NCBI GenBank assembly: GCA_907163375.1
Contig: CAJQUW010003203.1
Span: 372,001 to 436,000, forward strand
Direction of reading: 5' to 3'
From: Prostheceraeus crozeri
Lineage: Eukaryota > Platyhelminthes > Polycladida > Euryleptidae
DNA length: 64,000 bases
Positions 11,892-64,000 of the stretch are shown here, piece by piece. The translations under genes and the position numbers were made by a program. Below the pieces are notes generated by a model, which saw nothing but the letters and a program-made list of their open reading frames with translations, was not told where the DNA came from and searched no databases. Position 1 is the first letter of the stretch, and each line of letters opens with the position of its first letter.

Positions 11892-12025
11892 ACAAATTGT
11901 GATTTCACATTCTACAAAAAAGGCACTTTAAAATTCAAAGTTAGATGCATAGGGCTATAAAGACAAGAAATTTAGGTTAGAAAATATCATAGGATCATAG
12001 ATTGATCTAAGTCGAGTGGGCATAG

Positions 12026-14137: not shown

Positions 14138-14313
14138 TTTGAACAATTGACTAAGTAGATAAGAGTGCTCAACAATAATGTAATAATGTAATAATGGAGT
14201 TTTTCAGAGAAGATCAATGAAAGTATCGCTTTAGCCAATAGAGTGCTCAATATACTTGCATATAGAGCTAATAATATATATAGTATGATGTTCAAAAGAC
14301 TATTTCATAACTA

Positions 14314-14353
14314 ACAGTGCTATTGGTTTCACGAATCAACGATCATCAGATGT
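14314..14353 (-). ncRNA. Hammerhead-like motif, PLE-1 copy 4
   Basis: Same core, but the cleavage triplet reads GCA instead of GTA, which breaks the NUH rule. This copy should not cleave. Confidence 0.4.
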
Positions 14354-14487
14354 ACAAATTGTGATTTCACATTCTACAAAAAAGGCACTTTAAAATTCAA
14401 AGTTAGATGCATAGGGCTATAAAGACAAGAAATTTAGGTTAGAAAATATCATAGGATCATAGATTGATCTAAGTCGAGTGGGCATAG

Positions 14488-15185
14488 TTATTTCAGGTGG
14501 GCAATTATAAACTTTCTACGGTGCCGACATGTGGATATAATCTCAGATTTCTTATTCAGCAAATAAGTGTCTTTGGAGGTCAGAATGTGGAACTTTTCAG
14601 CGAGACACAAGGCACATTTTCGAGTTCCGCACTTGTATGGTCTTGATTGCTCGAGCACTTCCCATTGTATGTTGTATTCTTCATTTTTGTCATTCAAGTT
14701 CCAAATGTATTTTGATAATGTTGTTTCGTTCCGGTATTGAAAGTTGGTGAATGATTTTTTGTGGTTTCTGTATCTAGTATTAAAAAATCATTTTCTGTTT
14801 GTCCAATGTACGTTTTCTTTTCGTTTGTTGTAGATACAGTTGCTTTGTGGACAACAGAACTTTTCAAACATTCTCAATTTAAAGGACAGGAATTTTTTCT
14901 TTTACAGTTGCATTGTTTTTCTTCCGCTTTCACATTGGCCACATTCTGAATTGCTTTGTAGTTGTGCTTTTTGATCATGTTTTTAACGTTTGATGTACAA
15001 CTGTAGCTAACTTTGACACTATTTCTGTTAAATAGAGACCTGTATTTGTGGTGTTGAGGAAAATGAATATCCAACAGAGTGAGAAAACGTCTACCAATAT
15101 TTGTCTTTACACTTAGGTTGAACGGAGGGTTGAATCAGAGTATGTTTCGCCGTCTTCTGTTTTTCTTGACATCACTTGGCTGGTT
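14488..15185 (-). pseudogene. PLE-1 copy 4: endonuclease part only
   Basis: Only the 3' third remains: linker, zinc knuckle and GIY-YIG. It carries the shared frameshift after ENDF. At the conserved WFNPPF position it reads in frame from RRR but has TGA in place of the Trp codon (RRRNIL, stop, FNPPF). The copy breaks off at the inversion junction near 15185, where the array switches to the plus strand. Confidence 0.8.
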
Positions 15186-15232
15186 TAATAATTTGTTTAA
15201 TAATTGATGGTGGATGATTGGTGGTTGACATC
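15186..15232. other. Inversion junction inside the PLE-1 array
   Basis: The sequence passes from the minus copy 4 to the plus copy 5 through about 45 bp of scrambled repeats of taataattgatggtggatg and ttgtttaataatt. These are fragments of the same element (the strand encoding HPPSIIKQ). Such short filler is consistent with template switching or end joining rather than a clean recombination crossover. Confidence 0.6.
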
Positions 15233-16301
15233 TGGCAAGTACAGACCTTTCATCAAACCAAACAATACAACCATGTATATAAACAAAGAATCAAATCATC
15301 CACCATCAATTATCAAACAAATTCCATCAATGATAGAAAGACGCATATCGAATTTATCTTGTGACAGAAACGAGTTTGAGAAAGTGAAAAGACATTATGA
15401 AAGAGCACTTAAAAAAAGTGGTTTCAATAAACATTTGCAGTACCAGCCAAGTGATGTCAAGAAAAACAGAAGACGGCAAACATACTCTGGTTCAACCCTC
15501 CGTTCAACCTAAGTGTAAAGACAAATATTGGTAGACGTTTTCTCACTCTGTTGGATATTCATTTTCCTCAACACCACAAATACAGGTCTCTATTTAACAG
15601 AAATAGTGTCAAAGTTAGCTACAGTTGTACATCAAACGTTAAAAACATGATCAAAAAGCACAACTACAAAGCAATTCAGAATGTGGCCAATGTGAAAGCG
15701 GAAGAAAAACAATGCAACTGTAAAAGAAAAAATTCCTGTCCTTTAAATGGAGAATGTTTGAAAAGTTCTGTTGTCCACAAAGCAACTGTATCTACAACAA
15801 ACGAAAAGAAAACGTACATTGGACAAACAGAAAATGATTTTTTAATACTAGATACAGAAACCACAAAAAATCATTCACCAACTTTCAATACCGGAACGAA
15901 ACAACATTATCAAAATACATTTGGAGCTTGAATGACAAAAATGAAGAATACAACATACAATGGGAAGTGCTCGAGCAATCAAGACCATACAAGTGCGGAA
16001 CTCGAAAATGTGCCTTGTGTCTCGCTGAAAAGTTCCACATTCTGACCTCCAAAGACACTTATTTGCTGAATAAGAAATCTGAGATTATATCCACATGTCG
16101 GCACCGTAGAAAGTTTATAATTGCCCACCTGAAATAACTATGCCCACTCGACTTAGATCAATCTATGATCCTATGATATTTTCTAACCTAAATTTCTTGT
16201 CTTTATAGCCCTATGCATCTAACTTTGAATTTTAAAGTGCCTTTTTTGTAGAATGTGAAATCACAATTTGTACATCTGATGATCGTTGATTCGTGATTCA
16301 A
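15233..16301 (+). pseudogene. PLE-1 copy 5: RT tail plus GIY-YIG, truncated
   Basis: A plus-strand copy that starts in the RT C-terminal region (SGKYRPFIKPNN) and runs through zinc knuckle and endonuclease to about 16137. It keeps the frameshift after ENDF shared with copies 1-4. Its 3' side stops within the hammerhead-like motif (near 16292-16301) and is joined directly to copy 6. Confidence 0.8.
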
Positions 16302-16304
16302 TCG

Positions 16305-18235
16305 TGATTTCCATCAATTAGATGCCCACCTATTGACGAACATTTGACTTCTTTTGAACAGGCCTTGTACCAACTAATACAAGAAATTGAATTCAAGGAT
16401 CACATCAACAACAGCTTCATGAAAGAACTAAAGAAAAACAACGGCGAAATGAAACAATCAAAAAATGTATTCGTGTTTGCCGACAAGACTAATAACATTT
16501 ATGAAGTCCCAGCCAGCAGATATCAAAAACTTCTGAATGACAACATAACAACGGCATATAAAAAGACTGATAATGCTGTAGTAAGAAAAGTTGATCTAGA
16601 AGCGAAAGTGATTGCAAAGAGCTTCAATGTCGCAAATCGAGTTGAATGTTATGCAAAAAATAACGCCTTCATCACATTCAAGGACCACAAGGAAAATTTT
16701 CCCAATCCACTGAAATGTAGATTAATAAATCCGGCCAAAAGTGAAATTGGTATCATCAGCAAAAGAATATTGGAAAAGCATAATGAAATGATCAGAACAA
16801 AAACAAAGTTATTGCAATGGCGAGAAACTGCATCCGTGATTCAATGGTTTAACAATATTCCAAGTAAGAACAACTGCAAATTCTTGAAGTTTGACATTAT
16901 TGACTTTTATCCTTCCATAAGTGAGTCACTATTACTGGAAAGTCTTCAATTTGCGGAACAACACACCACTATATCACAACGAGAGAAAGAAACAATAATG
17001 CATGCTAGGAAATCATTCTTATTCGATGGTCAAAACACGTGGATAAAGAAAGGAGACCCGTTTGACGTCACTATGGGGTCGTTTGATGGCGCAGAAGTAT
17101 GCGAATTGGTGGGATTATTCCTCCTTGACATCTTATGCAACAGATTTGGAAGAGAGCAAGTGGGACTGTTCAGAGACGATGGTCTGGCAGTGTTCCCTGG
17201 TCAAAGTGGACCTGAAGCAGATAGAACACGGAAATCTATCATCAGAATATTCCAAGAACATAATCTCAAAATAACAGCAGAGTGTAATATTCAAGCGACG
17301 GATTTTCTCGATGTATACTTCGACCTACCATCTGGCAAGTACAGACCTTTCATCAAACCAAACAATACAACCATGTATATAAACAAAGAATCAAATCATC
17401 CACCATCAATTATCAAACAAATTCCATCAATGATAGAAAGACGCATATCGAATTTATCTTGTGACAGAAACGAGTTTGAGAAAGTGAAAGGACATTATGA
17501 AAGAGCACTTAAAAAAAGTGGTTTCAATAAACATTTGCAGTACCAGCCAAGTGATGTCAAGAAAAACAGAAGACGGCAAACATACTCTGGTTCAACCCTC
17601 CGTTCAACCTAAGTGTAAAGACAAATATTGGTAGACGTTTTCTCACTCTGTTGGATATTCATTTTCCTCAACACCACAAATACAGGTCTCTATTTAACAG
17701 AAATAGTGTCAAAGTTAGCTACAGTTGTACATCAAACGTTAAAAACATGATCAAAAAGCACAACTACAAAGCAATTCAGAATGTGGCCAATGTGAAAGCG
17801 GAAGAAAAACAATGCAACTGTAAAAGAAAAAATTCCTGTCCTTTAAATGGAGAATGTTTGAAAAGTTCTGTTGTCCACAAAGCAACTGTATCTACAACAA
17901 ACGAAAAGAAAACGTACATTGGACAAACAGAAAATGATTTTAAGACTAGATACAGAAACCACAAAAAATCATTCACCAACTTTCAATACCGGAACGAAAC
18001 AACATTATCAAAATACATTTGGAGCTTGAATGACAAAAATGAAGAATACAACATACAATGGGAAGTGCTCGAGCAATCAAGACCATACAAGTGCGGAACT
18101 CGAAAATGTGCCTTGTGTCTCGCTGAAAAGTTCCACATTCTGACCTCCAAAGACACTTATTTGCTGAATAAGAAATCTGAGATTATATCCACATGTCGGC
18201 ACCGTAGAAAGTTTATAATTGCCCACCTGAAATAA
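16305..18235 (+). pseudogene. PLE-1 copy 6: RT plus the only intact GIY-YIG frame of the family
   Basis: 5'-truncated at PPIDEHLTSFEQ. The RT frame is open to 17612 with motif A FDIIDFYPSI, motif B TMGSFDGAEVCELVG and catalytic FRDD. The endonuclease frame 17651-18235 is intact for 194 codons: CNCKRKNSCPLNGECL, KTYIGQTENDFKTRYRNHKK, LSKYIW, CGTRKCALCLAEKF, STCRHRRKF. Here gattttaagactag replaces the gattttttaatactag of the five other copies, so no frameshift follows ENDF. RT and endonuclease are still out of frame with each other just before WFNPPF. It may be the copy closest to the active ancestor. Confidence 0.85.
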
Positions 18236-18369
18236 CTATGCCCACTCGACTTAGATCAATCTATGATCCTATGATATTTTCTAACCTAAATTTCTTGTCT
18301 TTATAGCCCTATGCATCTAACTTTGAATTTTAAAGTGCCTTTTTTGTAGAATGTGAAATCACAATTTGT

Positions 18370-18409
18370 ACATCTGATGATCGTTGATTCGTGAAACCAA
18401 TAGTACTGT
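18370..18409 (+). ncRNA. Hammerhead-like motif, PLE-1 copy 6
   Basis: Plus-strand counterpart with CTGATGA, GAAA and GTA. It lies between the intact copy 6 endonuclease and the closing TA repeat. Confidence 0.45.
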
Positions 18410-18439
18410 TAGTTATGAAATAGTCTTTTGAACATCATA

Positions 18440-18465
18440 CTATATATATATATATATATATATAG
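18440..18465. repeat. (TA)n microsatellite at right edge of Penelope array
   Basis: The TA run closes the PLE-1 array and mirrors the one at 6541-6569. Confidence 0.9.
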
Positions 18466-21242: not shown

Positions 21243-21538
21243 TTAATTAGATTCATCCGAATCACAATAGGAAATAGAATCATCACTGAGGTAAGTGCTA
21301 GAAGCATCGAGATCACAAGTAGCATCAAGATCACATGAGGTGTACTCACTTCGTTTCTTTTGAAGAATCTGCAATCCTTCTTCGTTGCCTAGAACATGGA
21401 AGCAATGTAAGACTTCGTCTTCGGATCCATCTGGCTCCAATGTGATTCCGCATTGTTTCATTGATCTTGCAATCTGCTCTTCGGGGATTGAATCCCAACT
21501 TTGAGAAATCCAGCCAGCAACGGTAGAGAAATGGCAGT
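21243..21538 (-). pseudogene. Pogo transposase, detached C-terminal part
   Basis: Minus-strand frame reading HFSTVAGWISQSWDSIPEE, then IARSMKQCGITLEPDGSEDE, and ending in a Ser/Asp-rich tail. Pogo/Tigger transposases end with a WI..AWDSI..E.I..SFK.CGIT..DGSED pattern, so this is the natural C-terminus of the transposase whose catalytic part ends at 23000. Joining GNE (codons just before 23000) to HCHFSTV would give a continuous protein. The tyrosinase/H3 block therefore sits inside the transposase gene. Confidence 0.8.
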
Positions 21539-21541
21539 GCT

Positions 21542-22575
21542 ATGGATAGTCGAAGCTCTGTGGTCGTCATGACGATTTTCTGCCTCACGTTGGCGGTGAG
21601 GCAATGCGCGGCACAGTTTCCTCGTGTGTGCGCCGCCAACGCTTCCCTCGATGGAGGAGTCTACTGTCCTTCAATGCCAGACGATCCAAATGGCCCTGTG
21701 TGTGGAGGTCCTCTTCGAGGTAGCTGTCAACGAATCAATTCAGCTTGTCCATCTCAAAGATCACGTGTTGCAAGATGGCTGAGAAATGACGACCGCCTTG
21801 ACTGGCCACTGAGCTTCTTCTCCTATTCCTGCTCGTGCATCGGCAATTTCTGGGGCTATGCATGCCATCGCTGTCGACCAGGCTGGTGGGGCGATAGCTG
21901 CAACATCCAAGGTGTCGGACGAATCAGACGAAACGCATTAACAATGACTGCTGAGCAAAAGCGAATCTTCAGAGAAGTCATGACGAAGTCGAGAACCGTG
22001 CAGTCCGATTGGGTTGTCATGAACATCTCCTCCCGACAGAACGGAGATCCGATTGGGTCGGTGCCGACACCCATTCCGTTCTACAATGTTTCGGTCTACG
22101 ACTTCATAGTCTACACGCATTTCTACTCTGCTCGCAGCTCTTTGTTAAGCAACAATATGGATGTCTGCCGTGGAGAGGTCCACCGCCTGGATTTGGCACA
22201 CAAGGGACCCGGCTTTCCTTCTTGGCATCGACGTTTGCTGATCGAGTTTGAGTATGAGGTCGGAGAGGTTCAAAAGCGTTATACCAACTCAACTGAGCTG
22301 TTTGCGATGCCGTATTGGGACTGGGTTGAGGGAACCAATTGCAGCGTCTGCACCAATGATCTGGCAGGTGCGCTCAACACTTCTGATCCCAATCTGCGAC
22401 TGGACAGTGGATCGGGCTTCTACAATTGGCGCAACTTCTGCAAAAGACGCGCGGGTCTCACTGACTGCCACACCTGCGACCCAACACGAAGATGGAACTA
22501 CTTGTGGCGTGCCTACTCAAATGATCCCCAACATAAGGAATTGCCGAAACAAACCGATATCATTTTCGCGTTCAC
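21542..22575 (+). pseudogene. Tyrosinase, 5' coding fragment (CuA half), captured
   Basis: The ATG at 21542 opens a 345-codon intronless stretch. It has a hydrophobic signal segment (VVVMTIFCLTLAV), then a Cys-rich EGF-like region (CSCIGNFWGYACHRCRPGWW), then the tyrosinase CuA site with HFYSARSS, DLAHKGPGFPSWHRR and the downstream MPYWDWVEG. Tyrosinases oxidise phenols with two copper ions. Here the sequence stops near DIIFAFT, before CuB, so it cannot be active. The frame runs on to 22909, but those last residues are merely antisense to H3. The lack of introns over 1 kb suggests a cDNA-derived copy, but an intronless source gene is possible. The layout resembles chordate-type tyrosinases. 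Confidence 0.85.
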
Positions 22576-22588
22576 TAGCGCTTGCTGT

Positions 22589-24082
<1,494 letters not shown>

Positions 24083-29140: not shown

Positions 29141-29180
<40 letters not shown>
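29141..29180. repeat. (TA)n microsatellite, left edge of PLE-2
   Basis: A TA run bordering the minus-strand arm of PLE-2. The right border is the TA run at 32279-32330. Confidence 0.9.
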
Positions 29181-29423
29181 TCGTTTGATATGAGCTATAG
29201 TATCGTAAAGTGCTCAATGCAAAATACAGAGCTATTTATAATAAATCAAAAGAATTAATTACGCAACTTCGAGTATACTAAAAGTTTCATGTTAATACAA
29301 TCTTCAAAGCATAGAAAAGGATAAGTTATTCAAAAGATGGTAGAGGATACGAATTACAAAAATGACCGTGATATTTGATGACGTTATAGTTATGATGTAA
29401 TGTTTAATGTGTATGTTGAGATA

Positions 29424-30459
29424 TCATTTCACACTTGATAACAGGAATTTACGTCTATGTCTACATGTTGATATCAATTCACTTTTTTTGTTTAGCAGGT
29501 CTTTTTCTTTATAAGTAAGGATGTAGTATTTCTCTAAGAGACATAGATTACATCGTCTTGTTCCACATTTGTATGGTGTCGTTTGGTCCAGTATTTCCCA
29601 TTTCACTTCGTATTTTTTGTTGTTGTTATTTAGCGACCATATTAGTTTGGATAATGCTGTTTCGTTTTCATAATTCAAGTTGGTAAAAGACGTCTTGTGA
29701 TTTCTGTATCGTGTTTTAAAGTCATTGTCTGTTTGCCCAATATATACCATTTTTTCATTGTCATCTGTAGTTACTGTTGCTTTATAAACTACGCACCTTG
29801 TTAGGCATTTGTTTTGTAGTGGACACTGTTGTTTGTTTCTACAATTGCATTGACTTTGGATGGGTTCATTGTTTCGTTCATCTTTGTTTTTGATTAATAC
29901 CTTTGAGTTATGTTGTTTGATAATATTTTTCATGTTTGGCATACAACTATAACTGAGTTTTACATTGTTCTTGTTGAATATAGTTTTGTACTTATGATTG
30001 GCTGGGAAATGTTTGTTTATTAATGATAGAAATTTATGTCCAATATTCGTTTTCACGTTCTGACTAAAGGGTGGGTTGAACCAAATTATATTTCTCTTTC
30101 TTCTACTTCTGCTTTTTGATGGCTTGAACTCTAGGTTGTAATTATGTCCACTTTTATTTAATGCATTTTGGTAATGTTGTTTCACTTTGTTGAATTCGTT
30201 CTTGTCAGATGATAATGAGGACAGTCTTTTTTCTATCTTGAGAGGCACTTGTTTGATGATACTCGGGGGATGATTTGATTTTGTGTTTATGTATTGGGTT
30301 ACATCGCTCGGCTTGATGTACGGCCTGTATTTTCCGGTTGGTAAATCGAGATGAACATCAAGGAAGTCGGTTGTTTTTATGTTAGTTTCGACAGTGATCT
30401 TTAACTTGTGGTCTTGAAATATTTTGATAATATCCTTCCTTGCTTTGTCAGAGTCAGGT
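29424..30459 (-). pseudogene. PLE-2 truncated copy: RT tail plus GIY-YIG
   Basis: The minus-strand frame runs from the RT C-terminal region (KARKDIIKIF, KTTDFLDVHLDLPTGKYRPY) through IIWFNPPF, ISYSC-like linker, CNCRNKQQCPLQNKCL, MVYIGQTDNDFKTRYRNHKT and STCRHRRKF. It is the same sequence as the plus copy but lacks the catalytic RT half. The endonuclease frame is intact and continuous with the linker. Confidence 0.85.
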
Positions 30460-30475
30460 CCTTGCTTTGTCAGAG

Positions 30476-32094
30476 CAGGACGAGTCGAATGTTATAGCCC
30501 AACGCAAGCATTCATCACATTCAAAGACCATAAAGAAGGCTTTCCTAATTCGTTAAAATGCCGTCTCATCAACCCAGCCAAATCGGAAATTGGTAAAATA
30601 AGCAAAAAAATACTTGACAAACACAACACAATCATAAAAGAAAAGACTAACCTGATACAATGGAAACAAACCTCATCAGTTATTAATTGGTTCAACAACA
30701 TAACATTGAAACAAACGAAGAAATTCATGAAATTTGACATTGTTGAATTTCATCCGTCAATAACAGAAGAATTACTATTAGAAAGTATCAATTTCGCTCA
30801 AGAATTTACCAATTTCACAGAAGAAGAAATAAATTGTGTATTACATGCGAAAAAGTCATTCCTGTTTGACGAAACTAATACGTGGCAGAAAAAAGGTGAT
30901 AATTTTTTATTCGACGTCACAATGGGAAGTTTTGATGGTGCAGAGACCTGTGATTTAGTCGGACTTTTTCTCCTGAGCAAATTAGAAAGACGTTTTGGTG
31001 GAAACAACATTGGATTATTCCGGGATGATGGCTTTGCAGTCCTAAACGATGCTTCAGGACCTGACTCTGACAAAGCAAGGAAGGATATTATCAAAATATT
31101 TCAAGACCACAAGTTAAAGATCACTGTCGAAACTAACATAAAAACAACCGACTTCCTTGATGTTCATCTCGATTTACCAACCGGAAAATACAGGCCGTAC
31201 ATCAAGCCGAGCGATGTAACCCAATACATAAACACAAAATCAAATCATCCCCCGAGTATCATCAAACAAGTGCCTCTCAAGATAGAAAAAAGACTGTCCT
31301 CATTATCATCTGACAAGAACGAATTCAACAAAGTGAAACAACATTACCAAAATGCATTAAATAAAAGTGGACATAATTACAACCTAGAGTTCAAGCCATC
31401 AAAAAGCAGAAGTAGAAGAAAGAGAAATATAATTTGGTTCAACCCACCCTTTAGTCAGAACGTGAAAACGAATATTGGACATAAATTTCTATCATTAATA
31501 AACAAACATTTCCCAGCCAATCATAAGTACAAAACTATATTCAACAAGAACAATGTAAAACTCAGTTATAGTTGTATGCCAAACATGAAAAATATTATCA
31601 AACAACATAACTCAAAGGTATTAATCAAAAACAAAGATGAACGAAACAATGAACCCATCCAAAGTCAATGCAATTGTAGAAACAAACAACAGTGTCCACT
31701 ACAAAACAAATGCCTAACAAGGTGCGTAGTTTATAAAGCAACAGTAACTACAGATGACAATGAAAAAATGGTATATATTGGGCAAACAGACAATGACTTT
31801 AAAACACGATACAGAAATCACAAGACGTCTTTTACCAACTTGAATTATGAAAACGAAACAGCATTATCCAAACTAATATGGTCGCTAAATAACAACAACA
31901 AAAAATACGAAGTGAAATGGGAAATACTGGACCAAACGACACCATACAAATGTGGAACAAGACGATGTAATCTATGTCTCTTAGAGAAATACTACATCCT
32001 TACTTATAAAGAAAAAGACCTGCTAAACAAAAAAAGTGAATTGATATCAACATGTAGACATAGACGTAAATTCCTGTTATCAAGTGTGAAATGA
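30476..32094 (+). CDS. PLE-2 RT plus GIY-YIG polyprotein, 5'-truncated but open
   Basis: About 540 codons open from RVECYSPTQAFITFKDHK to STCRHRRKFLLSSVK. RT motif A is KFDIVEFHPSI, motif B TMGSFDGAETCDLVG and catalytic FRDD (GLFRDDGFAV). The linker keeps IIWFNPPF intact, unlike the other PLEs here. The zinc knuckle CNCRNKQQCPLQNKCL and the GIY-YIG (VYIGQTDNDFKTRYRNHK) follow in the same frame. The N-terminal part with RMRW and the ADKT region is missing, because the copy begins at the inversion junction. It is the most complete PLE frame in the window and the best reference for spotting lesions in the others. Confidence 0.85.
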
Positions 32095-32274
32095 TATCTC
32101 AACATACACATTAAACATTACATCATAACTATAACGTCATCAAATATCACGGTCATTTTTGTAATTCGTATCCCCTACCATCTTTTGAATAACTTATCCT
32201 TTTCTATGCTTTGAAGATTGTATTAACATGAAACTTTTAGTATACTCGAAGTTGCGTAATTAATTCTTTTGATT

Positions 32275-32278
<4 letters not shown>

Positions 32279-32331: not shown

Positions 32332-32502
32332 ATTAAAATGAAAACACAGGATTAAGAAGCATGCGCCAACATGTTTCTGCCACTACTGTGGCTTGTCAAG
32401 GCGATAAATGAACTATATTGAATAGCTACAATACAAATGAATTTCAACTAAAAATACATGGACACAGTCATTAGCCTGTAGGCTAGAGAAGATCATAGAG
32501 TT

Positions 32503-33436
32503 TTAGAAGACGTTTAGTGGTGGTCGGTATTTTCTAATGAACATAGTTTCTTTGTGTTCACGTTCTAGCCTTGTAGAAGAAATCGGCATTTTATAGAATG
32601 GCATGATAGAGATTTTTTTACTCAAATTTACCGCACAATTTCTGATATGGGTGCTTGCTGGTAAAAATGAGTATTCAGCATTTTGAATCTGTTGCCGATG
32701 GACAGTAACTCTGTGACGAAGGGTATCACCGGATTGACCTATGTAAAATTTATTGCAACCTAGGCAAGTCAATTTATAAATGAAATTGGAAGACCCACAA
32801 CTCATGTTGTGTCTTATGTTAAAATGAAAGTCAGATTCATCAACTCGAAAAGTAATTTTCTTCCCTGCTGTAATATTGTCGCAGCATTTGCAGCGGGGTT
32901 GATCACATTTAGTTACCCCCTCAATTTGAGTTTTCTTATTTCGTTTTAAAATGGATAATATTGATTTTGGCTGTCTTAGTGAATTCTGAAATTTACAATT
33001 TTCGAAAGATTTAATAGATTTTAATGTATTAGTTAATGGGTAAATAGTTTTGTTGAAGACTTGAGGATTATTGGGATTATAGGTATGTACAAAAGGAATA
33101 ATAATGTCATTTGATGTATATCTATTATCATTATGCTTTAATCGTTCTTTGGCTCTTTGTATAGCATTCCTTACTAAACCTTCAGGATAATTTAGTTTTG
33201 TTAATCTATCCTTTAGTTCTTGATATCTTACAATCTTATTATGATTTTCGGATACAATTCTTTCTATCCTATGGGCCAGCACAAACGGAATGTTTCGAAT
33301 TGTATGTCTCGGATGATTTGACTGAAAAGGTATATAACTAAAACTATCGGTCGGTTTGTTGTAGATGTCTGTTTCTATAGTATTTTTAATGGTATTTTTG
33401 TATACCCGAACATCCGAATATATTTTGTCATATATT
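32503..33436 (-). pseudogene. PLE-5 minus copy: RT tail, linker, GIY-YIG
   Basis: The minus-strand frame opens with DKIYSDVRVYKNTIKNTIET and IYNKPTDSFSYIPFQSNHPR, the RT C-terminal YRKPT-like block. It continues through the LTKLNYPEGLVRNAIQRAK linker and CKCC, then the endonuclease NMSCGSSNFIYKLTCLGC, KFYIGQSGDTLRHRVTVHRQ, and ends RKYRPPLNVF. The GIY-YIG differs strongly from PLE-1/2/3, lacks their CNC.K..CP.N..C knuckle, and belongs to another PLE group. The RT catalytic half is missing. Confidence 0.8.
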
Positions 33437-34137
33437 TAACAAAACTAAATTATCCTGAAGGTTTAGTAAGGAATGCTATACAAAGAGCCAAAGAACGATT
33501 AAAGCATAATGATAATAGATATACATCAAATGACATTATTATTCCTTTTGTACATACCTATAATCCCAATAATCCTCAAGTCTTCAACAAAACTATTTAC
33601 CCATTAACTAATACATTAAAATCTATTAAATCTTTCGAAAATTGTAAATTTCAGAATTCACTAAGACAGCCAAAATCAATATTATCCATTTTAAAACGAA
33701 ATAAGAAAACTCAAATTGAGGGGGTAACTAAATGTGATCAACCCCGCTGCAAATGCTGCGACAATATTACAGCAGGGAAGAAAATTACTTTTCGAGTTGA
33801 TGAATCTGACTTTCATTTTAACATAAGACACAACATGAGTTGTGGGTCTTCCAATTTCATTTATAAATTGACTTGCCTAGGTTGCAATAAATTTTACATA
33901 GGTCAATCCGGTGATACCCTTCGTCACAGAGTTACTGTCCATCGGCAACAGATTCAAAATGCTGAATACTCATTTTTACCAGCAAGCACCCATATCAGAA
34001 ATTGTGCGGTAAATTTGAGTAAAAAAATCTCTATCATGCCATTCTATAAAATGCCGATTTCTTCTACAAGGCTAGAACGTGAACACAAAGAAACTATGTT
34101 CATTAGAAAATACCGACCACCACTAAACGTCTTCTAA
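33437..34137 (+). pseudogene. PLE-5 plus copy: linker plus GIY-YIG
   Basis: Mirror of the minus copy from TKLNYPEGLVRNAIQRAKER to RKYRPPLNVF, apparently without frame damage over the shared part. No RT is present. Inverted repetition of the 3' end is the recurring arrangement of PLEs here. Confidence 0.8.
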
Positions 34138-34343
34138 AACTCTATGATCTTCTCTAGCCTACAGGCTAATGACTGTGTCCATGTATTTTTAGTTGAAATT
34201 CATTTGTATTGTAGCTATTCAATATAGTTCATTTATCGCCTTGACAAGCCACAGTAGTGGCAGAAACATGTTGGCGCATGCTTCTTAATCCTGTGTTTTC
34301 ATTTTAATTTTTTAACTCCATTTGCTTTGATTTCTATTATTTC

Positions 34344-34368
34344 ATTATATATATATATATATATATCA
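34344..34368. repeat. (TA)n microsatellite
   Basis: A TA run at the 5' truncation point of PLE-6. Confidence 0.9.
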
Positions 34369-36202: not shown

Positions 36203-36205
36203 TCA

Positions 36206-36259
36206 AACCTACCCACGACTGATGAGGCCCAACAGGCCGAAACATGTCTCGTGGTGGTT
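36206..36259 (+). ncRNA. Hammerhead ribozyme, solo copy between TA repeats
   Basis: Same ribozyme as in the 53-kb array: AACC, ccacga stem I strand, CTGATGA (36219-36225), GGCC-caaca-GGCC stem II, GAAA, catGTC, tcgtgg, GGTT. Stem I pairs over 6 bp plus an outer 4-bp helix across an internal loop. It is followed by tacatctgttgagatttgat and then TA repeats. On the left, the element begins at ttcaaacc directly after a TA run, so only the ribozyme and tail are present. Confidence 0.85.
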
Positions 36260-36334
36260 ACATCTGTTGAGATTTGATAAATATATACATATATATATAT
36301 ATATATATATGTAAGTGAAAACAACTCACTCGCT

Positions 36335-36385
36335 AGAAACAACACAACATGTTTCAGCATTACAATGCCATCTTCAGGTGTGCAC
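36335..36385 (-). ncRNA. Hammerhead-like motif of PLE-7
   Basis: Minus strand: ACAC, CTGAAGA, an arm with gcatt pairing to aatgc, GAAA, catGTT, GTGT. The core fits CUGANGA and GAAA, stem I is a 4-bp ACAC/GTGT helix, and the triplet is GTT, a permitted but less efficient NUH. It lies downstream of the PLE-7 endonuclease relic. Confidence 0.55.
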
Positions 36386-51358: not shown

Positions 51359-52315
51359 CAGTGGCGGCTCTATGGATTTCTGTTAGGTCATGCTCATCAA
51401 TTTTTACTGGCTGACGAAATAGGGATGGTCAAACACAGTTTCAAAAGTTTTACAACTTCGGGCAAGCTCTTTTGTAAATCCTCAGAGAAAATGAATTTTA
51501 ATAAGTCTTTCAATGGTTTCTTGAAGTCATCATCGTGATAAATAAATTTTAATTCATTTTGGAGACGACTTATATCAAAAAAATCTTCATATGCAGATTT
51601 TAGAGATCGGAGTAGATGGTGAGGGAAATCCCATTGATAAGAAGAAAAGAAATTCATGTCCAGGAGGCTCAGAAATTCAAAATCTTTGTGATCACGAAAG
51701 CGTGCTTCCATACCTTCAGAAATTGTGTCAATAATTTTGAACATAAGGGGACACAATTCTGATGCAATTAGTTCTTCCGTCTTATGATTGGGGAGCATCT
51801 CAAAAACCTTTGCTGTCAAATCATGATACTCATCATCAGAGTCGTAAACAACTGAGACTCGAGACATCTCATGATTTCACTACACCGATAAAATCAGCAG
51901 ATTGCCGTCCAATCAGCTACCGTTAGTTGGTTGAAACGAGCTATACGTATCATTTGTGCTTCCCGTCCACGGCATGAGATGGAGTATGTAAATCGTCATC
52001 CGCAGATTTTGCTATTGTTCTCCCGTCAGATGATCCGGCCAATAACAAATGAGGTATGCTCGAAGCGTTCCCCTGAATTTTTTAGAACAAGTTAGCTACT
52101 TGATAAATCTTAATTGAGTATGACCTTAATGTCACAGCAACATGATCTGACATAGTAATCAAATGTTGTCAAAGCTTGAAAATGATGTTGGAAGTTTTTT
52201 TATTGATTCAAAACTTTCCCTTTCTTGTGGTTGGCATCGTTGATTTGTGTGGAGGAAAATTAGACAAAATACTTCGTCATGCTGAGCAGGAAGTGCATGA
52301 TCGCTAAAGCCGCCA

Positions 52316-52318
<3 letters not shown>
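51359..52318. mobile_element. hAT-type element, internally deleted (960 bp)
   Basis: The ends are cagtggcggctctat and, as reverse complement of the right end, cagtggcggctttag, an 11-bp inverted repeat. atatatat flanks both sides, compatible with the 8-bp target duplication of hAT elements, although the host is a TA repeat. Inside lies a piece of hAT transposase. Confidence 0.8.
51397..51867 (-). pseudogene. hAT transposase fragment
   Basis: 156 codons on the minus strand with DFEFLSLLDMNFFSSYQWDF and LPEVVKLLKLCLTIPISSAS. The second block is the start of the hAT C-terminal dimerisation region, which normally continues ..ER.FS. Here it stops at SASKN. The BED zinc finger and catalytic Asp residues are missing. 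Such ZMYM1/Charlie-like proteins are common in animal genomes. Confidence 0.75.

Positions 52319-52352
<34 letters not shown>

Positions 52353-52521: not shown

Positions 52522-52569
<48 letters not shown>
52522..52569. repeat. (TA)n microsatellite, left edge of ribozyme repeat cluster
   Basis: A TA run. Similar TA runs at 52664-52698 and 54135-54170 divide and close the cluster. Confidence 0.9.
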
Positions 52570-52570
<1 letters not shown>

Positions 52571-52571
<1 letters not shown>

Positions 52572-52661
52572 GACAAGTAACCTGGCAATTAATAAATTTA
52601 TCAAATCTCAACAGATGTAACATGTAACATGTCTCGTGGTGGTTACATCTGTTGAGATTTG

Positions 52662-52666
<5 letters not shown>
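52571..52666. repeat. Foldback of the ribozyme-repeat tail
   Basis: The segment holds the repeat tail on the minus strand (tcaaatctcaacagatgtaa) followed by the ribozyme 3' strand and tail on the plus strand (gtctcgtggtggttacatct). It forms an inverted repeat around acatgtaacatgtctcg. Confidence 0.75.
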
Positions 52667-52697
<31 letters not shown>

Positions 52698-52701
<4 letters not shown>

Positions 52702-52892
52702 CAAATCTCAACAGATGTAACCACCACGAGACATGTTTCGGCCTGTTGGGCCTCATCAGTCGTGGGCAGGTTTGAACCAGCGACGTTGGAGCTAGAGGAC
52801 GTGCAAGCATACCCTCTAACCACAAGGCCACCGGACCATCTGTTGAGAGCGTGAATTAGCCAGGAAGGCACTGCTTTAACGCAGGCACGTAT
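52698..52892 (-). mobile_element. Truncated minus-strand copy of the tRNA-like/hammerhead repeat
   Basis: Contains tail, hammerhead, B box (ggttcaaacc as reverse complement of 52769-52778), tRNA-like head and the flank gtgccttcctggctaattca. It ends near 52892. The reading direction is opposite to the tandem array. Confidence 0.85.
52719..52772 (-). ncRNA. Hammerhead ribozyme, minus-strand copy
   Basis: The same sequence as in the tandem array: AACC, CCACGA, CTGATGA, GGCC-caaca-GGCC, GAAA, catGTC, TCGTGG, GGTT on the minus strand. All core positions are intact. Confidence 0.85.
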
Positions 52893-53061
52893 GTACTTGT
52901 AGTAGTATGTACTTGTCCAAACATGTAATGAGTAGCGCCTGCGTGAAGCGCCTCAATCTCGGATGCGGTATTAAGTGATTGCAGAAAGCATTCCACCCTC
53001 CACGTGCCTGCGTTAAAGCAGTGCCTTCCTGGCTAATTCACGCTCTCAACAGATGGTCCGG

Positions 53062-53123
53062 TGGCCTTGTGGTTAGAGGGTATGCTTGCACGTCCTCTAG
53101 CTCCAACGTCGCTGGTTCAAACC
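53062..53123 (+). promoter_or_regulatory. tRNA-like Pol III promoter (A box and B box), unit 1
   Basis: The A-box-like tggccttgtgg is at 53062-53072 and the B box ggttcaaacc at 53114-53123, about 41 bp apart, as in tRNA-derived SINE heads. Surrounding gtccggtggccttgtggtta resembles a tRNA D-arm region. The A box has T where A is usual at one position. Units 2-4 repeat it at +303, +606 and +909. The last four bases of the B box (AACC) are also the outer strand of hammerhead stem I. Confidence 0.65.
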
Positions 53124-53173
53124 TGCCCACGACTGATGAGGCCCAACAGGCCGAAACATGTCTCGTGGTGGTT
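53120..53173 (+). ncRNA. Hammerhead ribozyme, array unit 1
   Basis: AACC (53120-53123), internal loop tgc, stem I CCACGA (53127-53132), core CTGATGA (53133-53139), stem II GGCC/GGCC with loop caaca, GAAA (53153-53156), minimal stem III, cleavage triplet GTC (53160-53162), stem I TCGTGG (53163-53168), outer helix GGTT (53170-53173). All invariant nucleotides are present. The very short stem III is like that of retrozyme and satellite hammerheads, which often cleave as dimers. Confidence 0.9.
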
Positions 53174-53422
53174 ACATCTGTTGAGATTTGATAAATTTAT
53201 CAATTGCCAGGTTACTTGTCTAAACATGTAATGAGTAGCGCCTGCGTGAAGCGCCTCAATCTCGGATGCGGTATTAAGTGATTGCAGAAAGCATTCCACC
53301 CTCCACGTGCCTGCGTTAAAGCAGTGCCTTCCTGGCTAATTCACGCTCTCAACAGATGGTCCGGTGGCCTTGTGGTTAGAGGGTATGCTTGCACGTCCTC
53401 TAGCTCCAACGTCGCTGGTTCA

Positions 53423-53476
53423 AACCTGCCCACGACTGATGAGGCCCAACAGGCCGAAACATGTCTCGTGGTGGTT
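53423..53476 (+). ncRNA. Hammerhead ribozyme, array unit 2
   Basis: Identical to unit 1, one period (303 bp) downstream. The cut sites of neighbouring units delimit a 303-nt monomer. Confidence 0.9.
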
Positions 53477-53725
53477 ACATCTGTTGAGATTTGATAAATT
53501 TATCAATTGCCAGGTTACTTGTCTAAACATGTAATGAGTAGCGCCTGCGTGAAGCGCCTCAATCTCGGATGCGGTATTAAGTGATTGCAGAAAGCATTCC
53601 ACCCTCCACGTGCCTGCGTTAAAGCAGTGCCTTCCTGGCTAATTCACGCTCTCAACAGATGGTCCGGTGGCCTTGTGGTTAGAGGGTATGCTTGCACGTC
53701 CTCTAGCTCCAACGTCGCTGGTTCA

Positions 53726-53779
53726 AACCTGCCCACGACTGATGAGGCCCAACAGGCCGAAACATGTCTCGTGGTGGTT
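53726..53779 (+). ncRNA. Hammerhead ribozyme, array unit 3
   Basis: Identical core, stems and loops to units 1 and 2. Confidence 0.9.
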
Positions 53780-54028
53780 ACATCTGTTGAGATTTGATAA
53801 ATTTATCAATTGCCAGGTTACTTGTCTAAACATGTAATGAGTAGCGCCTGCGTGAAGCGCCTCAATCTCGGATGCGGTATTAAGTGATTGCAGAAAGCAT
53901 TCCACCCTCCACGTGCCTGCGTTAAAGCAGTGCCTTCCTGGCTAATTCACGCTCTCAACAGATGGTCCGGTGGCCTTGTGGTTAGAGGGTATACTTGCAC
54001 GTCCTCTAGCTCCAACGTCGCTGGTTCA

Positions 54029-54082
54029 AACCTGCCCACGACTGATGAGGCCCAACAGGCCGAAACATGTCTCGTGGTGGTT
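54029..54082 (+). ncRNA. Hammerhead ribozyme, array unit 4
   Basis: Identical core, stems and loops. This unit runs into the closing TA repeat at 54135. Confidence 0.9.
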
Positions 54083-54134
54083 ACATCTGTTGAGATTTGA
54101 TAAATTTATCAATTGCCAGGTTACTTGTCTAAAC

Positions 54135-54165
<31 letters not shown>

Positions 54166-54170
54166 TATAT

Positions 54171-54461
54171 TGTGATGGATTCTGTGTGTTAATTTCTGTG
54201 ACTTTAATTGACCTTGACTTTTGTTTGTCTGCTCTGTCTGAAGCTAGGTGTTTTCTCTTAAAATCTAAATTGGCTACTGTTGTCCCCGTAAGGAATGTAA
54301 ATAAAATCAGCTGTTCTACAATCCAAGTCGATTTTAGCGTCTCAAATCCGAACGGTAGACCATACGACGGGAAGCTAAGAGTCTCTTACCTCTTGACCGC
54401 GCCTTAAGTCATTATTATCGCTATTTATTCCTTACATACATATATATATATATAATATAAT
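54171..54461. other. Unassigned DNA between ribozyme array and PLE-8
   Basis: No gene recognised. Ends in a short TA run (54439-54457) at the truncation point of PLE-8. Confidence 0.35.
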
Positions 54462-58199: not shown

Positions 58200-61100
58200 A
58201 AACGGACTTTAGATTCGTGATGAGCGTAAAATTCTGCATCGGTATGGTGAATTTCAAGTCAATCGGAGAGAAAAAATTTTCAACATTTTTCGAAAAAACG
58301 ACAGAGTTAGAATTTTGGACGTTTTGGTCTGTAGCGCCAAAACGAAGCATCGGATGGGAAAACGGAGGCCAGATTTGGATTCAGCGTGGAATTCTGCATC
58401 GGTATGGTGAATTTGAAAGCAATCGGAGAGAAAAAATTTTCGCTGACGTCCCCCCCCTCGGGAGAGCTAGCTTCGATCTTGGCTTCCAGTGGACGGATTT
58501 TGTCGTGCAATAGCTCGTTTGAAAGCTAAGAGTGAGACAAATTCACTGAAAGAAACGCCTTGTTCATATCTGTCTTCGTCGTCGTTTAGATGTGAGACGC
58601 CATTTAAGATTTTGGGAGATTGTCGAAAAAACGACAGAGTTAGAATTTTGGACGTTTTGGTCTGTAGCGCCAAAACGAAGCATCGGATGGGAAAACGGAT
58701 TTCAGATTTGGAATCAGCGTCAAATTCTCTGTCAACATGGTGAGTTTCAAGTCAATCGGCGAGAAACAATTTTCAACATTTTTCGGAAAAACGACAGAGT
58801 TAGAATTTGGGACGTTTTGGTCTGTAGCGCCAAAACGAAGCATCGGATGGGAAAACGGAGGCCAGATTTGGATTCAGCGTGGAATTCTGCATCGGTATGG
58901 TGAATTTGAAAGCAATCGGAGAGAAAAAATTTTCGCTGACGTCCCCCCCCCTCGGGAGAGCTAGCTTCGATCTTGGCTTCCAGTGGACGGATTTTGTCGT
59001 GCAATAGCTCGTTTGAAAGCTAAGAGTGAGACAAATTCACTGAAAGAAACGCCTTGTTCATATCTGTCTTCGTCGTCGTTTAGATGTGAGACGCCATTTA
59101 AGATTTTGGGAGATTGTCGAAAAAACGACAGAGTTAGAATTTTGGACGTTTTGGTCTGTAGCGCCAAAACGAAGCATCGGATGGGAAAACGGATTTCAGA
59201 TTTGGAATCAGCGTCAAATTCTCTGTCAACATGGTGAGTTTCAAGTCAATCGGCGAGAAACAATTTTCAACATTTTTCGGAAAAACGACAGAGTTAGAAT
59301 TTGGGACGTTTTGGTCTGTAGCGCCAAAACGAAGCATCGGATGGGAAAACGGAGGCCAGATTTGGATTCAGCGTGGAATTCTGCATCGGTATGGTGAATT
59401 TGAAAGCAATCGGAGAGAAAAAATTTTCGCTGACGTCCCCCCCCTCGGGAGAGCTAGCTTCGATCTTGGCTTCCAGTGGACGGATTTTGTCGTGCAATAG
59501 CTCGTTTGAAAGCTAAGAGTGAGACAAATTCACTGAAAGAAACGCCTTGTTCATATCTGTCTTCGTCGTCGTTTAGATGTGAGACGCCATTTAAGATTTT
59601 GGGAGATTGGCGAAAAAACGACAGAGTTAGAATTTTGGACGTTTTGGTCTGTAGCGCCAAAACGAAGCATCGGATGGGAAAACGGAGGCCAGATTTGGAT
59701 TCAGCGTGGAATTCTGCATCGGTATGGTGAATTTGAAAGCAATCGGAGAGAAAAAATTTTCGCTGACGTCCCCCCCCCTCGGGAGAGCTAGCTTCGATCT
59801 TGGCTTCCAGTGGACGGATTTTGTCGTGCAATAGCTCGTTTGAAAGCTAAGAGTGAGACAAATTCACTGAAAGAAACGCCTTGTTCATATCTGTCTTCGT
59901 CGTCGTTTAGATGTGAGACGCCATTTAAGATTTTGGGAGATTGTCGAAAAAACGACAGAGTTAGAATTTTGGACGTTTTGGTCTGTAGCGCCAAAACGAA
60001 GCATCGGATGGGAAAACGGATTTCAGATTTGGAATCAGCGTCAAATTCTCTGTCAACATGGTGAGTTTCAAGTCAATCGGCGAGAAACAATTTTCAACAT
60101 TTTTCGGAAAAACGACAGAGTTAGAATTTGGGACGTTTTGGTCTGTAGCGCCAAAACGAAGCATCGGATGGGAAAACGGAGGCCAGATTTGGATTCAGCG
60201 TGGAATTCTGCATCGGTATGGTGAATTTGAAAGCAATCGGAGAGAAAAAATTTTCGCTGACGTCCCCCCCCTCGGGAGAGCTAGCTTCGATCTTGGCTTC
60301 CAGTGGACGGATTTTGTCGTGCAATAGCTCGTTTGAAAGCTAAGAGTGAGACAAATTCACTGAAAGAAACGCCTTGTTCATATCTGTCTTCGTCGTCGTT
60401 TAGATGTGAGACGCCATTTAAGATTTTGGGAGATTGTCGAAAAAACGACAGAGTTAGAATTTTGGACGTTTTGGTCTGTAGCGCCAAAACGAAGCATCGG
60501 ATGGGAAAACGGATTTCAGATTTGGAATCAGCGTCAAATTCTCTGTCAACATGGTGAGTTTCAAGTCAATCGGCGAGAAACAATTTTCAACATTTTTCGG
60601 AAAAACGACAGAGTTAGAATTTGGGACGTTTTGGTCTGTAGCGCCAAAACGAAGCATCGGATGGGAAAACGGAGGCCAGATTTGGATTCAGCGTGGAATT
60701 CTGCATCGGTATGGTGAATTTGAAAGCAATCGGAGAGAAAAAATTTTCGCTGACGTCCCCCCCCCTCGGGAGAGCTAGCTTCGATCTTGGCTTCCAGTGG
60801 ACGGATTTTGTCGTGCAATAGCTCGTTTGAAAGCTAAGAGTGAGACAAATTCACTGAAAGAAACGCCTTGTTCATATCTGTCTTCGTCGTCGTTTAGATG
60901 TGAGACGCCATTTAAGATTTTGGGAGATTGTCGAAAAAACGACAGAGTTAGAATTTTGGACGTTTTGGTCTGTAGCGCCAAAACGAAGCATCGGATGGGA
61001 AAACGGATTTCAGATTTGGAATCAGCGTCAAATTCTCTGTCAACATGGTGAGTTTCAAGTCAATCGGCGAGAAACAATTTTCAACATTTTTCGGAAAAAC

Positions 61101-64000
61101 GACAGAGTTAGAATTTGGGACGTTTTGGTCTGTAGCGCCAAAACGAAGCATCGGATGGGAAAACGGAGGCCAGATTTGGATTCAGCGTGGAATTCTGCAT
61201 CGGTATGGTGAATTTGAAAGCAATCGGAGAGAAAAAATTTTCGCTGACGTCCCCCCCCTCGGGAGAGCTAGCTTCGATCTTGGCTTCCAGTGGACGGATT
61301 TTGTCGTGCAATAGCTCGTTTGAAAGCTAAGAGTGAGACAAATTCACTGAAAGAAACGCCTTGTTCATATCTGTCTTCGTCGTCGTTTAGATGTGAGACG
61401 CCATTTAAGATTTTGGGAGATTGTCGAAAAAACGACAGAGTTAGAATTTTGGACGTTTTGGTCTGTAGCGCCAAAACGAAGCATCGGATGGGAAAACGGA
61501 TTTCAGATTTGGAATCAGCGTCAAATTCTCTGTCAACATGGTGAGTTTCAAGTCAATCGGCGAGAAACAATTTTCAACATTTTTCGGAAAAACGACAGAG
61601 TTAGAATTTGGGACGTTTTGGTCTGTAGCGCCAAAACGAAGCATCGGATGGGAAAACGGAGGCCAGATTTGGATTCAGCGTGGAATTCTGCATCGGTATG
61701 GTGAATTTGAAAGCAATCGGAGAGAAAAAATTTTCGCTGACGTCCCCCCCCTCGGGAGAGCTAGCTTCGATCTTGGCTTCCAGTGGACGGATTTTGTCGT
61801 GCAATAGCTCGTTTGAAAGCTAAGAGTGAGACAAATTCACTGAAAGAAACGCCTTGTTCATATCTGTCTTCGTCGTCGTTTAGATGTGAGACGCCATTTA
61901 AGATTTTGGGAGATTGGCGAAAAAACGACAGAGTTAGAATTTTGGACGTTTTGGTCTGTAGCGCCAAAACGAAGCATCGGATGGGAAAACGGATTTCAGA
62001 TTTGGAATCAGCGTCAAATTCTCTGTCAACATGGTGAGTTTCAAGTCAATCGGCGAGAAACAATTTTCAACATTTTTCGGAAAAACGACAGAGTTAGAAT
62101 TTGGGACGTTTTGGTCTGTAGCGCCAAAACGAAGCATCGGATGGGAAAACGGAGGCCAGATTTGGATTCAGCGTGGAATTCTGCATCGGTATGGTGAATT
62201 TGAAAGCAATCGGAGAGAAAAAATTTTCGCTGACGTCCCCCCCCCTCGGGAGAGCTAGCTTCGATCTTGGCTTCCAGTGGACGGATTTTGTCGTGCAATA
62301 GCTCGTTTGAAAGCTAAGAGTGAGACAAATTCACTGAAAGAAACGCCTTGTTCATATCTGTCTTCGTCGTCGTTTAGATGTGAGACGCCATTTAAGATTT
62401 TGGGAGATTGTCGAAAAAACGACAGAGTTAGAATTTTGGACGTTTTGGTCTGTAGCGCCAAAACGAAGCATCGGATGGGAAAACGGATTTCAGATTTGGA
62501 ATCAGCGTCAAATTCTCTGTCAACATGGTGAGTTTCAAGTCAATCGGCGAGAAACAATTTTCAACATTTTTCGGAAAAACGACAGAGTTAGAATTTGGGA
62601 CGTTTTGGTCTGTAGCGCCAAAACGAAGCATCGGATGGGAAAACGGAGGCCAGATTTGGATTCAGCGTGGAATTCTGCATCGGTATGGTGAATTTGAAAG
62701 CAATCGGAGAGAAAAAATTTTCGCTGACGTCCCCCCCCTCGGGAGAGCTAGCTTCGATCTTGGCTTCCAGTGGACGGATTTTGTCGTGCAATAGCTCGTT
62801 TGAAAGCTAAGAGTGAGACAAATTCACTGAAAGAAACGCCTTGTTCATATCTGTCTTCGTCGTCGTTTAGATGTGAGACGCCATTTAAGATTTTGGGAGA
62901 TTGTCGAAAAAACGACAGAGTTAGAATTTTGGACGTTTTGGTCTGTAGCGCCAAAACGAAGCATCGGATGGGAAAACGGATTTCAGATTTGGAATCAGCG
63001 TCAAATTCTCTGTCAACATGGTGAGTTTCAAGTCAATCGGCGAGAAACAATTTTCAACATTTTTCGGAAAAACGACAGAGTTAGAATTTGGGACGTTTTG
63101 GTCTGTAGCGCCAAAACGAAGCATCGGATGGGAAAACGGAGGCCAGATTTGGATTCAGCGTGGAATTCTGCATCGGTATGGTGAATTTGAAAGCAATCGG
63201 AGAGAAAAAATTTTCGCTGACGTCCCCCCCCTCGGGAGAGCTAGCTTCGATCTTGGCTTCCAGTGGACGGATTTTGTCGTGCAATAGCTCGTTTGAAAGC
63301 TAAGAGTGAGACAAATTCACTGAAAGAAACGCCTTGTTCATATCTGTCTTCGTCGTCGTTTAGATGTGAGACGCCATTTAAGATTTTGGGAGATTGTCGA
63401 AAAAACGACAGAGTTAGAATTTTGGACGTTTTGGTCTGTAGCGCCAAAACGAAGCATCGGATGGGAAAACGGATTTCAGATTTGGAATCAGCGTCAAATT
63501 CTCTGTCAACATGGTGAGTTTCAAGTCAATCGGCGAGAAACAATTTTCAACATTTTTCGGAAAAACGACAGAGTTAGAATTTGGGACGTTTTGGTCTGTA
63601 GCGCCAAAACGAAGCATCGGATGGGAAAACGGAGGCCAGATTTGGATTCAGCGTGGAATTCTGCATCGGTATGGTGAATTTGAAAGCAATCGGAGAGAAA
63701 AAATTTTCGCTGACGTCCCCCCCCCTCGGGAGAGCTAGCTTCGATCTTGGCTTCCAGTGGACGGATTTTGTCGTGCAATAGCTCGTTTGAAAGCTAAGAG
63801 TGAGACAAATTCACTGAAAGAAACGCCTTGTTCATATCTGTCTTCGTCGTCGTTTAGATGTGAGACGCCATTTAAGATTTTGGGAGATTGTCGAAAAAAC
63901 GACAGAGTTAGAATTTTGGACGTTTTGGTCTGTAGCGCCAAAACGAAGCATCGGATGGGAAAACGGATTTCAGATTTGGAATCAGCGTCAAATTCTCTGT
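58200..64000. repeat. 493-bp higher-order satellite array, continues beyond the window
   Basis: About 11.5 units with a period of 493-494 bp and very high identity. The extra base comes from a C-run of 7 or 8. Within a unit, a block of about 159 bp ending catcggatgggaaaacgg occurs twice and is followed by a third, diverged block with the C-run, so the array is a higher-order repeat of related sub-blocks. One unit (59476-59810) is only 334 bp and lacks one 159-bp block. The first unit (58200-58490) is variant and lies at the array edge. Open frames of 67-103 codons in all directions are by-products of repetition. I see no splice or protein signal to suggest coding. Confidence 0.9.

Follow-up and report, generated by a model that had tools for sequence, protein, structure and literature searches.

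A tandem repeat of 303-bp units, each combining tRNA-like sequences with a hammerhead ribozyme, was found in a 64-kb stretch of the Prostheceraeus crozeri genome (64,000 bp of contig CAJQUW010003203.1, referred to below as the window). The question raised by this locus is what kind of element the repeat represents and how its copies are spread. An earlier note on this DNA considered it a self-transcribing and self-circularising hybrid of a SINE and a retrozyme. The analysis described here leads to a different reading, which we hold to be probable: a non-autonomous metazoan non-LTR retrozyme, the circular RNA of which would be mobilised by the machinery of Penelope-like elements (PLEs).

Tandem-repeat detection showed that the 303-bp repeat is real. 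Three of its units are identical, and the fourth differs by one base. The array forms one arm of a larger head-to-head composite, and its inverted partner, a second small insertion and a dispersed copy had been overlooked by the earlier note. Unit positions are numbered U, U1 being the first base after the predicted ribozyme cut.

52910–54136, + strand: direct array of 303-bp units, 4.0 copies
52911–54133, + strand: right arm of the larger composite, ending after GTCTAAA (tail end, U62)
52697–52890, − strand: inverted 5′-truncated arm of the larger composite, with a complete hammerhead at 52730–52759, ending after GATAAA (short end, U33)
52568–52666: second small head-to-head insertion, its − arm (52568–52621) with the tail end and its + arm (52626–52666) with the short end
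36203–36281, + strand: dispersed truncated copy with a complete hammerhead, a short 3′ end and (TA)n on both sides

The exact ends of the copies at 52697–52890, 52568–52666 and 36203–36281 were trimmed by eye. No stop-to-stop frame of at least 120 aa spans the array, and one such frame (53946–54407) begins inside it and extends beyond. No frame encoding a reverse transcriptase or GIY-YIG endonuclease was found inside the array, so it is not an autonomous PLE. Upstream, at 51362–52321, about 960 bp lie between the inverted sequences CAGTGGCGGCT and AGCCGCCACTG within AT repeats, as judged by eye; this stretch looks like a non-autonomous hAT-like DNA transposon and contains a 159-codon open frame on the − strand (51397–51876).

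The ribozyme of the first unit was located using an Rfam match, our own descriptor and the predicted fold.

53120–53173, + strand: type I hammerhead of unit 1

Each unit matched the Rfam family Hammerhead_HH9 with 31.5 bits (E 6.6e-5), which is under the gathering score of the family (52). Our descriptor found six hammerheads in the window, all of the 303-bp family, and none in 200 shuffled windows (one strand). In unit 1, the core consists of CTGATGA (53133–53139) and GAAA (53153–53156), stem I is composed of inner CCACGA/TCGTGG and outer AACC/GGTT strands with a small internal loop between them, and stem II (GGCC/GGCC) has four G-C pairs. Cleavage is predicted after 53162 in unit 1 and after 53465, 53768 and 54071 in the other units. 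The assignment to type I held for all units, but the ribozyme had also been described as fully intact, which is too strong because helix III (GAAA-CAUG-UC) can form only a single A-U pair below the palindromic tetraloop CAUG. This matches the description in PMC7229834 of the amphibian hammerhead HHR_Amex1, which has a one-pair helix III with a palindromic tetraloop and whose cleavage is poor in the monomer and improves in the dimer. By analogy, activity of the P. crozeri hammerhead is predicted to be likelier as a dimer than as a monomer. The 30-nt hammerhead core is present in 285 exact copies in 205,617 bases, and an exact core pattern was absent from viral and prokaryote contig collections.

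The 303-bp family is dispersed in the assembly (2,048,925,868 bp), with at least 228 matches; this is a lower bound, as 39 of 848 first-look candidates were scored. Among the matches listed, copies were found on 39 contigs, including that of the window. The loci studied below comprise the copies on 38 other contigs, nine of them with longer flanks, and two places in the window; all belong to one genome and were drawn from the best-scoring, that is, the youngest copies. Further dispersed copies that include the tRNA-like head do exist, with 186 full units in 39 loci. The proposal of a retrozyme-like element with a hammerhead is supported, and the element is dispersed and multi-copy. The whole family is young: units differ on average at 1.3 sites within an arm, at 1.9 between opposite arms of one composite and at 3.9 between loci, with medians of 0, 0 and 2, respectively.

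The ends of the copies are informative about the way in which they were inserted. Head-to-head composites, 40 in number, were found in 35 of the 40 places (38 loci and the two places in the window), each with a − arm followed by a + arm and with 3′ ends facing outward. These ends fall at two fixed sites, given here for unit 1, at which reverse transcription may have started.

53195/53196, + strand: short 3′ end site U33, after TTTGATAAA
53224/53225, + strand: tail 3′ end site U62, after TTGTCTAAA, 29 nt downstream of U33

In the predicted fold, both sites are located in small hairpin loops or at their edge. The aligner runs past these ends by a few bases within (TA)n, and the ends were read at the sequence level. 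The segment finder leaves gaps in long arrays; gaps of up to 620 bp were bridged, and eight family hammerheads fall inside gaps. One short and one tail end were present in 34 of the 35 composites with both ends readable (p = 2.1e-9). The single exception, L044, has two short ends and mirrored flanks. As for the other five composites, the left end is odd in L040 (U235) and in one composite of L045 (U216), two composites in L055 have an end at U300, and that of L052 is cut by the contig end. The short end of L024 was read at U45 and is doubtful. Eleven segments lie outside any composite, namely three single arms (L012, L036 and the copy at 36 kb of the window), a pair of facing pieces in L023, one additional arm in L025 and five array pieces in L054.

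Two of these loci deserve a separate remark. The arms at 4751 and 5415 of L055 end at U300 in GAAACAT followed by (AT)n. This point is three bases short of the predicted cut and could be a third 3′ end. The composite of L044 (1442–2585) with its mirrored flanks is either a large palindrome or an assembly fold-back.

The targets of insertion are AT-rich, with (TA)6 or longer tracts within 45 bp of 57 of the 75 readable ends. Target duplications of about 10–14 bp, a length that is inexact because flank bases are shared with the element, were found in five of the six composites without (TA)n on either side; L044 has none. The duplications of L021, L029 and L039 were found by script, and those of L014 and L030 were read by eye.

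This copy anatomy, with two fixed outward 3′ ends 29 nt apart normally used once each, a tail on one side, an AT-rich target and a short target duplication, is the published signature of PLEs. Insertions of Adineta vaga PLEs are described as containing direct and inverted pLTRs, the inverted copy being partial and the head-to-head arrangement most frequent; a 31-bp tail is optional at one inverted pLTR of Penelope in this species, and target duplications of 8–10 bp occur in some insertions and are missing in others (PMC3846280). According to PMC11167929, the protein of the anole PLE (Poseidon of Anolis) cleaves both strands and extends both, has a preference for AT-rich DNA and initiates reverse transcription at two adjacent internal sites, the interval between which is the optional 30–40-bp tail. 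As far as these descriptions go, the P. crozeri element shares with these PLEs the inverted partial copy in head-to-head position, the direct tandem, the one-sided tail, insertion into AT-rich targets, short duplications of the target and a hammerhead motif near the start sites. In contrast to them, it encodes neither a reverse transcriptase nor an endonuclease, its unit has 303 nt, and its arms reach 16 units.

The same signature was observed in three PLE composites of the window itself.

6570–18449: PLE-A, tandem PLEs arranged head-to-head, with (TA)n at each outer end; of the 3′ ends, one is short and the other long, the short one lying 37 nt after a hammerhead-like GTA
29180–32277: PLE-B, head-to-head composite whose outward ends, a short and a long one, lie at (TA)n; the short end is 37 nt after GTA
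32332–34345: PLE-C, head-to-head composite whose outward ends, a short and a long one, lie at (TA)n; the short end is 37 nt after GTT

Several frames of the window were read by eye as putatively of PLE type from reverse transcriptase and GIY-YIG motifs. The structural model of the PLE-B frame was moderate (mean pLDDT 77, pTM 0.60), and the predicted structure matches reverse transcriptases, telomerases being among the top matches (rank 1, E 9.5e-6). The GIY-YIG match in the PLE-C frame was weak (Pfam, E 0.026, below the cut-off). Pfam gave no confident match for the PLE frames, none of the homologues listed for them is named Penelope, and a PDB sequence search with a PLE frame returned no match. 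In the window, no autonomous PLE sharing sequence with the 303-nt unit was found.

The distance from the end of the hammerhead-like pattern GAAAC..GTH to the short 3′ end is 37 nt in each of PLE-A, PLE-B and PLE-C and 33 nt in the retrozyme. Such a pattern at 33–40 nt was met at 76 of 18,258 sampled window positions; as the ends were already known when the pattern was selected, this comparison is a lead only. The survey also covered three further PLE-like ends, likewise inside the 64-kb window: E has such a piece 36 nt before (TA)n, D has one about 90 nt before it at one end only, and no hammerhead-like piece was found at F. The tails measure 76, 59 and 36 nt in the three PLEs and 29 nt in the retrozyme. 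Of 15 (TA)n tracts, 7 lie near PLE ends; this was matched by 57 of 20,000 random draws but by 2145 of 64,000 rotations, and the clustering is suggestive only. In addition, a PLE-type hammerhead-like motif (CTGAAGA..GAAACATGTT) is located on the − strand at 36348–36377, 36 nt before the (TA)n tract that adjoins the truncated retrozyme copy.

Other features of the window were also noted. A LINE-like frame at 3879–6095 (+) contains an RVT_1 domain and a weak match to an EEP endonuclease below the cut-off. In a single open frame at 22589–24082 (−), transposase domains (Tc5-type HTH and DDE_1) are joined with a complete histone H3; this frame is antisense to the end of a tyrosinase frame (21527–22909), for which matches were found at 40% (trematode) and 35% (annelid) identity. 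A large satellite with periods of 493 bp and 160 bp occupies 58244–64000 and reaches the window end.

If a PLE protein inserts the retrozyme, the form of its RNA template may be read from the variation among units. Three or more full units are present in 20 of the composites. Departures from the majority sequence comprised 17 variants fixed in all units of a composite, 155 singletons and 4 variants of intermediate frequency. Nine of the 17 are fixed in a single one of the 20 composites, and such private variants span full units of both arms in four composites (10/10 units in L026, 8/8 in L041, 6/6 in L037 and 3/3 in L032). Across the cut site, 163 of 167 junctions are exact. The 5′ ends of the arms are scattered: among 80 head ends, one L045 joint being counted twice, no pile-up was seen at the cut site (2 within 5 nt, with 2.9 expected; Rayleigh p about 0.16), and the densest place is U145, with 9 within 5 nt. 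The fold predicted for the 303-nt circle (−99.7 kcal/mol) is lower than those of all 100 shuffles. Near-uniform arrays without an end at the cut site would be what a circular template gives, and in this respect the variant pattern fits the circular RNA suggested earlier, with homogenised parent arrays as the rival source of uniformity.

In that rival account, PLE machinery would have copied a linear multimeric transcript, and the uniformity would come from homogenisation of the parent arrays at the DNA level or from the youth of the family. It is in line with the low overall divergence and with the anole PLE, for which PMC11167929 describes the use of unprocessed RNA in vitro and a hammerhead that is dispensable for insertion there. 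Nevertheless, variants fixed in both arms and private among the 20 composites, with only 4 intermediate ones, would need repeated homogenisation of parent arrays, and we regard a linear template as rather unlikely. With a family this young, in which units of different loci differ at a median of 2 sites, the uniformity test is of limited power, and homogenisation of the DNA could also operate; our confidence in a circle combined with PLE insertion was lowered accordingly.

The explanation that we prefer, a circular RNA inserted by PLE machinery, can be outlined as follows. Genomic arrays would be transcribed into multimeric RNA, which the hammerheads would cut into 303-nt units that are then closed into circles. 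A PLE protein, with its telomerase-type reverse transcriptase and GIY-YIG endonuclease, would accept the circle as a substitute for its own RNA and cut both strands of AT-rich DNA with a stagger of about 10–14 bp. Reverse transcription would start on both strands, on one at U33 and on the other at U62; counted from the hammerhead cut, these sites lie 33 and 62 nt downstream. Copying may go several times round the circle and stop anywhere, after which the two cDNAs would be joined head to head.

The source of the RNA brings in the tRNA-like head of the unit, for which the following features were identified in unit 1.

53062–53072, + strand: A-box-like TGGCCTTGTGG, recurring every 303 bp, one mismatch to the consensus
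53114–53124, + strand: B-box-like GGTTCAAACCT, one mismatch to the consensus, its AACC doubling as outer stem I
53044–53055, + strand: left arm TCTCAACAGATG of a 12-bp inverted repeat that closes the module of tRNA-like head and hammerhead
53175–53186, + strand: right arm CATCTGTTGAGA of this repeat

The box-like sequences reported earlier are present in each unit, 52 bp apart; an overlapping A-box alternative at 53054, 60 bp away, scores equally. Boxes this good were found in 12 of 2000 shuffled units (one strand) and nowhere in the 64 kb outside the family. The hammerhead had been placed directly after the boxes, which is not the case because the AACC of the B box belongs to stem I itself, pairing with GGTT at 53170–53173. 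The likeness to a tRNA is modest: ARAGORN found no tRNA, the Rfam tRNA model gave no match up to E 10, and the head is predicted to fold into a long hairpin and not into a cloverleaf. A tRNA gene was rejected on the results of ARAGORN and Rfam. Conservation of the boxes was dropped as an unreliable argument, as the counts flip with the point at which the unit is cut (12 vs. 0 events in the A box and 3 vs. 6 in the B box, depending on alignment phase). In either phase, low counts were retained only by the arms of the inverted repeat (3 and 1) and by the hammerhead core (2 and 2).

These boxes are the core of the earlier proposal of a SINE-retrozyme hybrid, in which Pol III would transcribe the units from internal A and B boxes and a LINE would insert the copies. 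The best local score of the head against a panel of 18 human tRNAs exceeds those of all 500 shuffled heads, although one of 1224 other window pieces equals it. TTTT is absent from both strands of the unit, but so it is in 891 of 2000 shuffled units. A precedent exists in the tRNA-Gln-derived Sm-alpha, as described in PMC2770079. Against this, head ends are not gathered at the start expected near U188 (5 within 5 nt, with 2.9 expected), and the only basis for calling the unit self-transcribing is formed by box-like sequences that neither ARAGORN nor the Rfam tRNA model recognises. Above all, LINE-type insertion, with one copy and one 3′ end as in a tRNA-derived SINE, was not seen in the copies. 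The hybrid is not supported as stated because the copies have the anatomy of PLEs, not that of LINE-mobilised SINEs, and we consider it distinctly improbable. Transcription by Pol III as such could hold together with mobilisation by a PLE.

Two other explanations were rejected on the fixed ends and target duplications. An ordinary satellite spread by unequal crossing over, with a hammerhead retained by descent, would account for tandem and homogeneous units, but is scarcely credible in view of copies on 39 listed contigs that have two fixed 3′ ends, target duplications, head-to-head arms and truncation. An assembly artefact as the origin of the head-to-head structure is just as hard to believe: the mirrored flanks of L044 would suit it, but five other composites have matching target duplications, and arm break points differ within and between loci.

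By its anatomy and content, as far as DNA can tell, the retrozyme reading preferred here places the 303-bp element among the metazoan non-LTR retrozymes known from coral, mussel and axolotl (Cervera and de la Pena 2020, PMC7229834). As described there, these have 150–450-bp tandem repeats, type I hammerheads, no coding capacity and strong self-pairing. Tandem units within this size range, each with a type I hammerhead, the lack of a coding region, dispersed copies and target duplications that, when present, exceed 4 bp were all found here. The GC content of the unit (50.2%) is slightly over the 45–50% below which these elements are described to lie, which is a property and not a part of the definition. 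The P. crozeri element differs in that its insertion anatomy is resolved here as Penelope-like and in that it contains box-like sequences, whereas retrozymes seemingly lack promoters according to the review PMC7761336. The schistosome elements Sm-alpha and Sj-alpha are SINE-like and bear hammerheads, Sm-alpha being related to tRNA-Gln (PMC2770079, PMC8490949). By description only, they resemble the present element in the short repeat, the type I hammerhead, high copy number and, for Sm-alpha, tRNA-related sequence. The combination of SINE-like, tRNA-derived and hammerhead features is thus already known from Sm-alpha, as PMC2770079 describes it.

A role of PLEs in the mobility of retrozymes has been proposed before. 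In the statements available from PMC7229834, PMC7761336, PMC8969392 and PMC11722881, animal retrozymes may rely on PLEs, or LINEs and PLEs are candidate mobilisers; PMC7761336 treats PLEs as likely mobilisers, PMC8969392 and PMC11722881 put this as a possibility, and PMC11722881 further suggests an origin of retrozymes from PLEs by reduction. Among the literature matches listed, a set mostly without subscription papers, no description of retrozymes with PLE-type ends was found.

Measured from the position of the hammerhead cut, the first putative start lies 33–37 nt downstream in the three PLEs and the retrozyme, including cases in which the PLE core seems degenerate on visual inspection. Tentatively, the reverse transcriptase of PLEs might choose its starts by the hammerhead as a landmark. 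Retrozymes would then be pared-down recognition modules of PLEs, with a closed circle, rolling reverse transcription on both cut strands and a Pol III-type head supplying the RNA. We regard this wider idea as possible rather than probable. A universal spacing is doubtful because, from the positions stated in PMC11167929, the anole PLE uses a stem loop that lies about 85–92 nt beyond the cut site.

The two 3′ end sites, used one of each, together with the target duplications provide genomic evidence for the PLE step in the spread of retrozymes, which has hitherto only been proposed. The near-uniform arrays provide genomic support for a circular template that is independent of RNA gels. Finally, with the similar spacing between hammerhead and start site, the role of hammerheads in PLEs, hitherto unexplained, can be put to the test.
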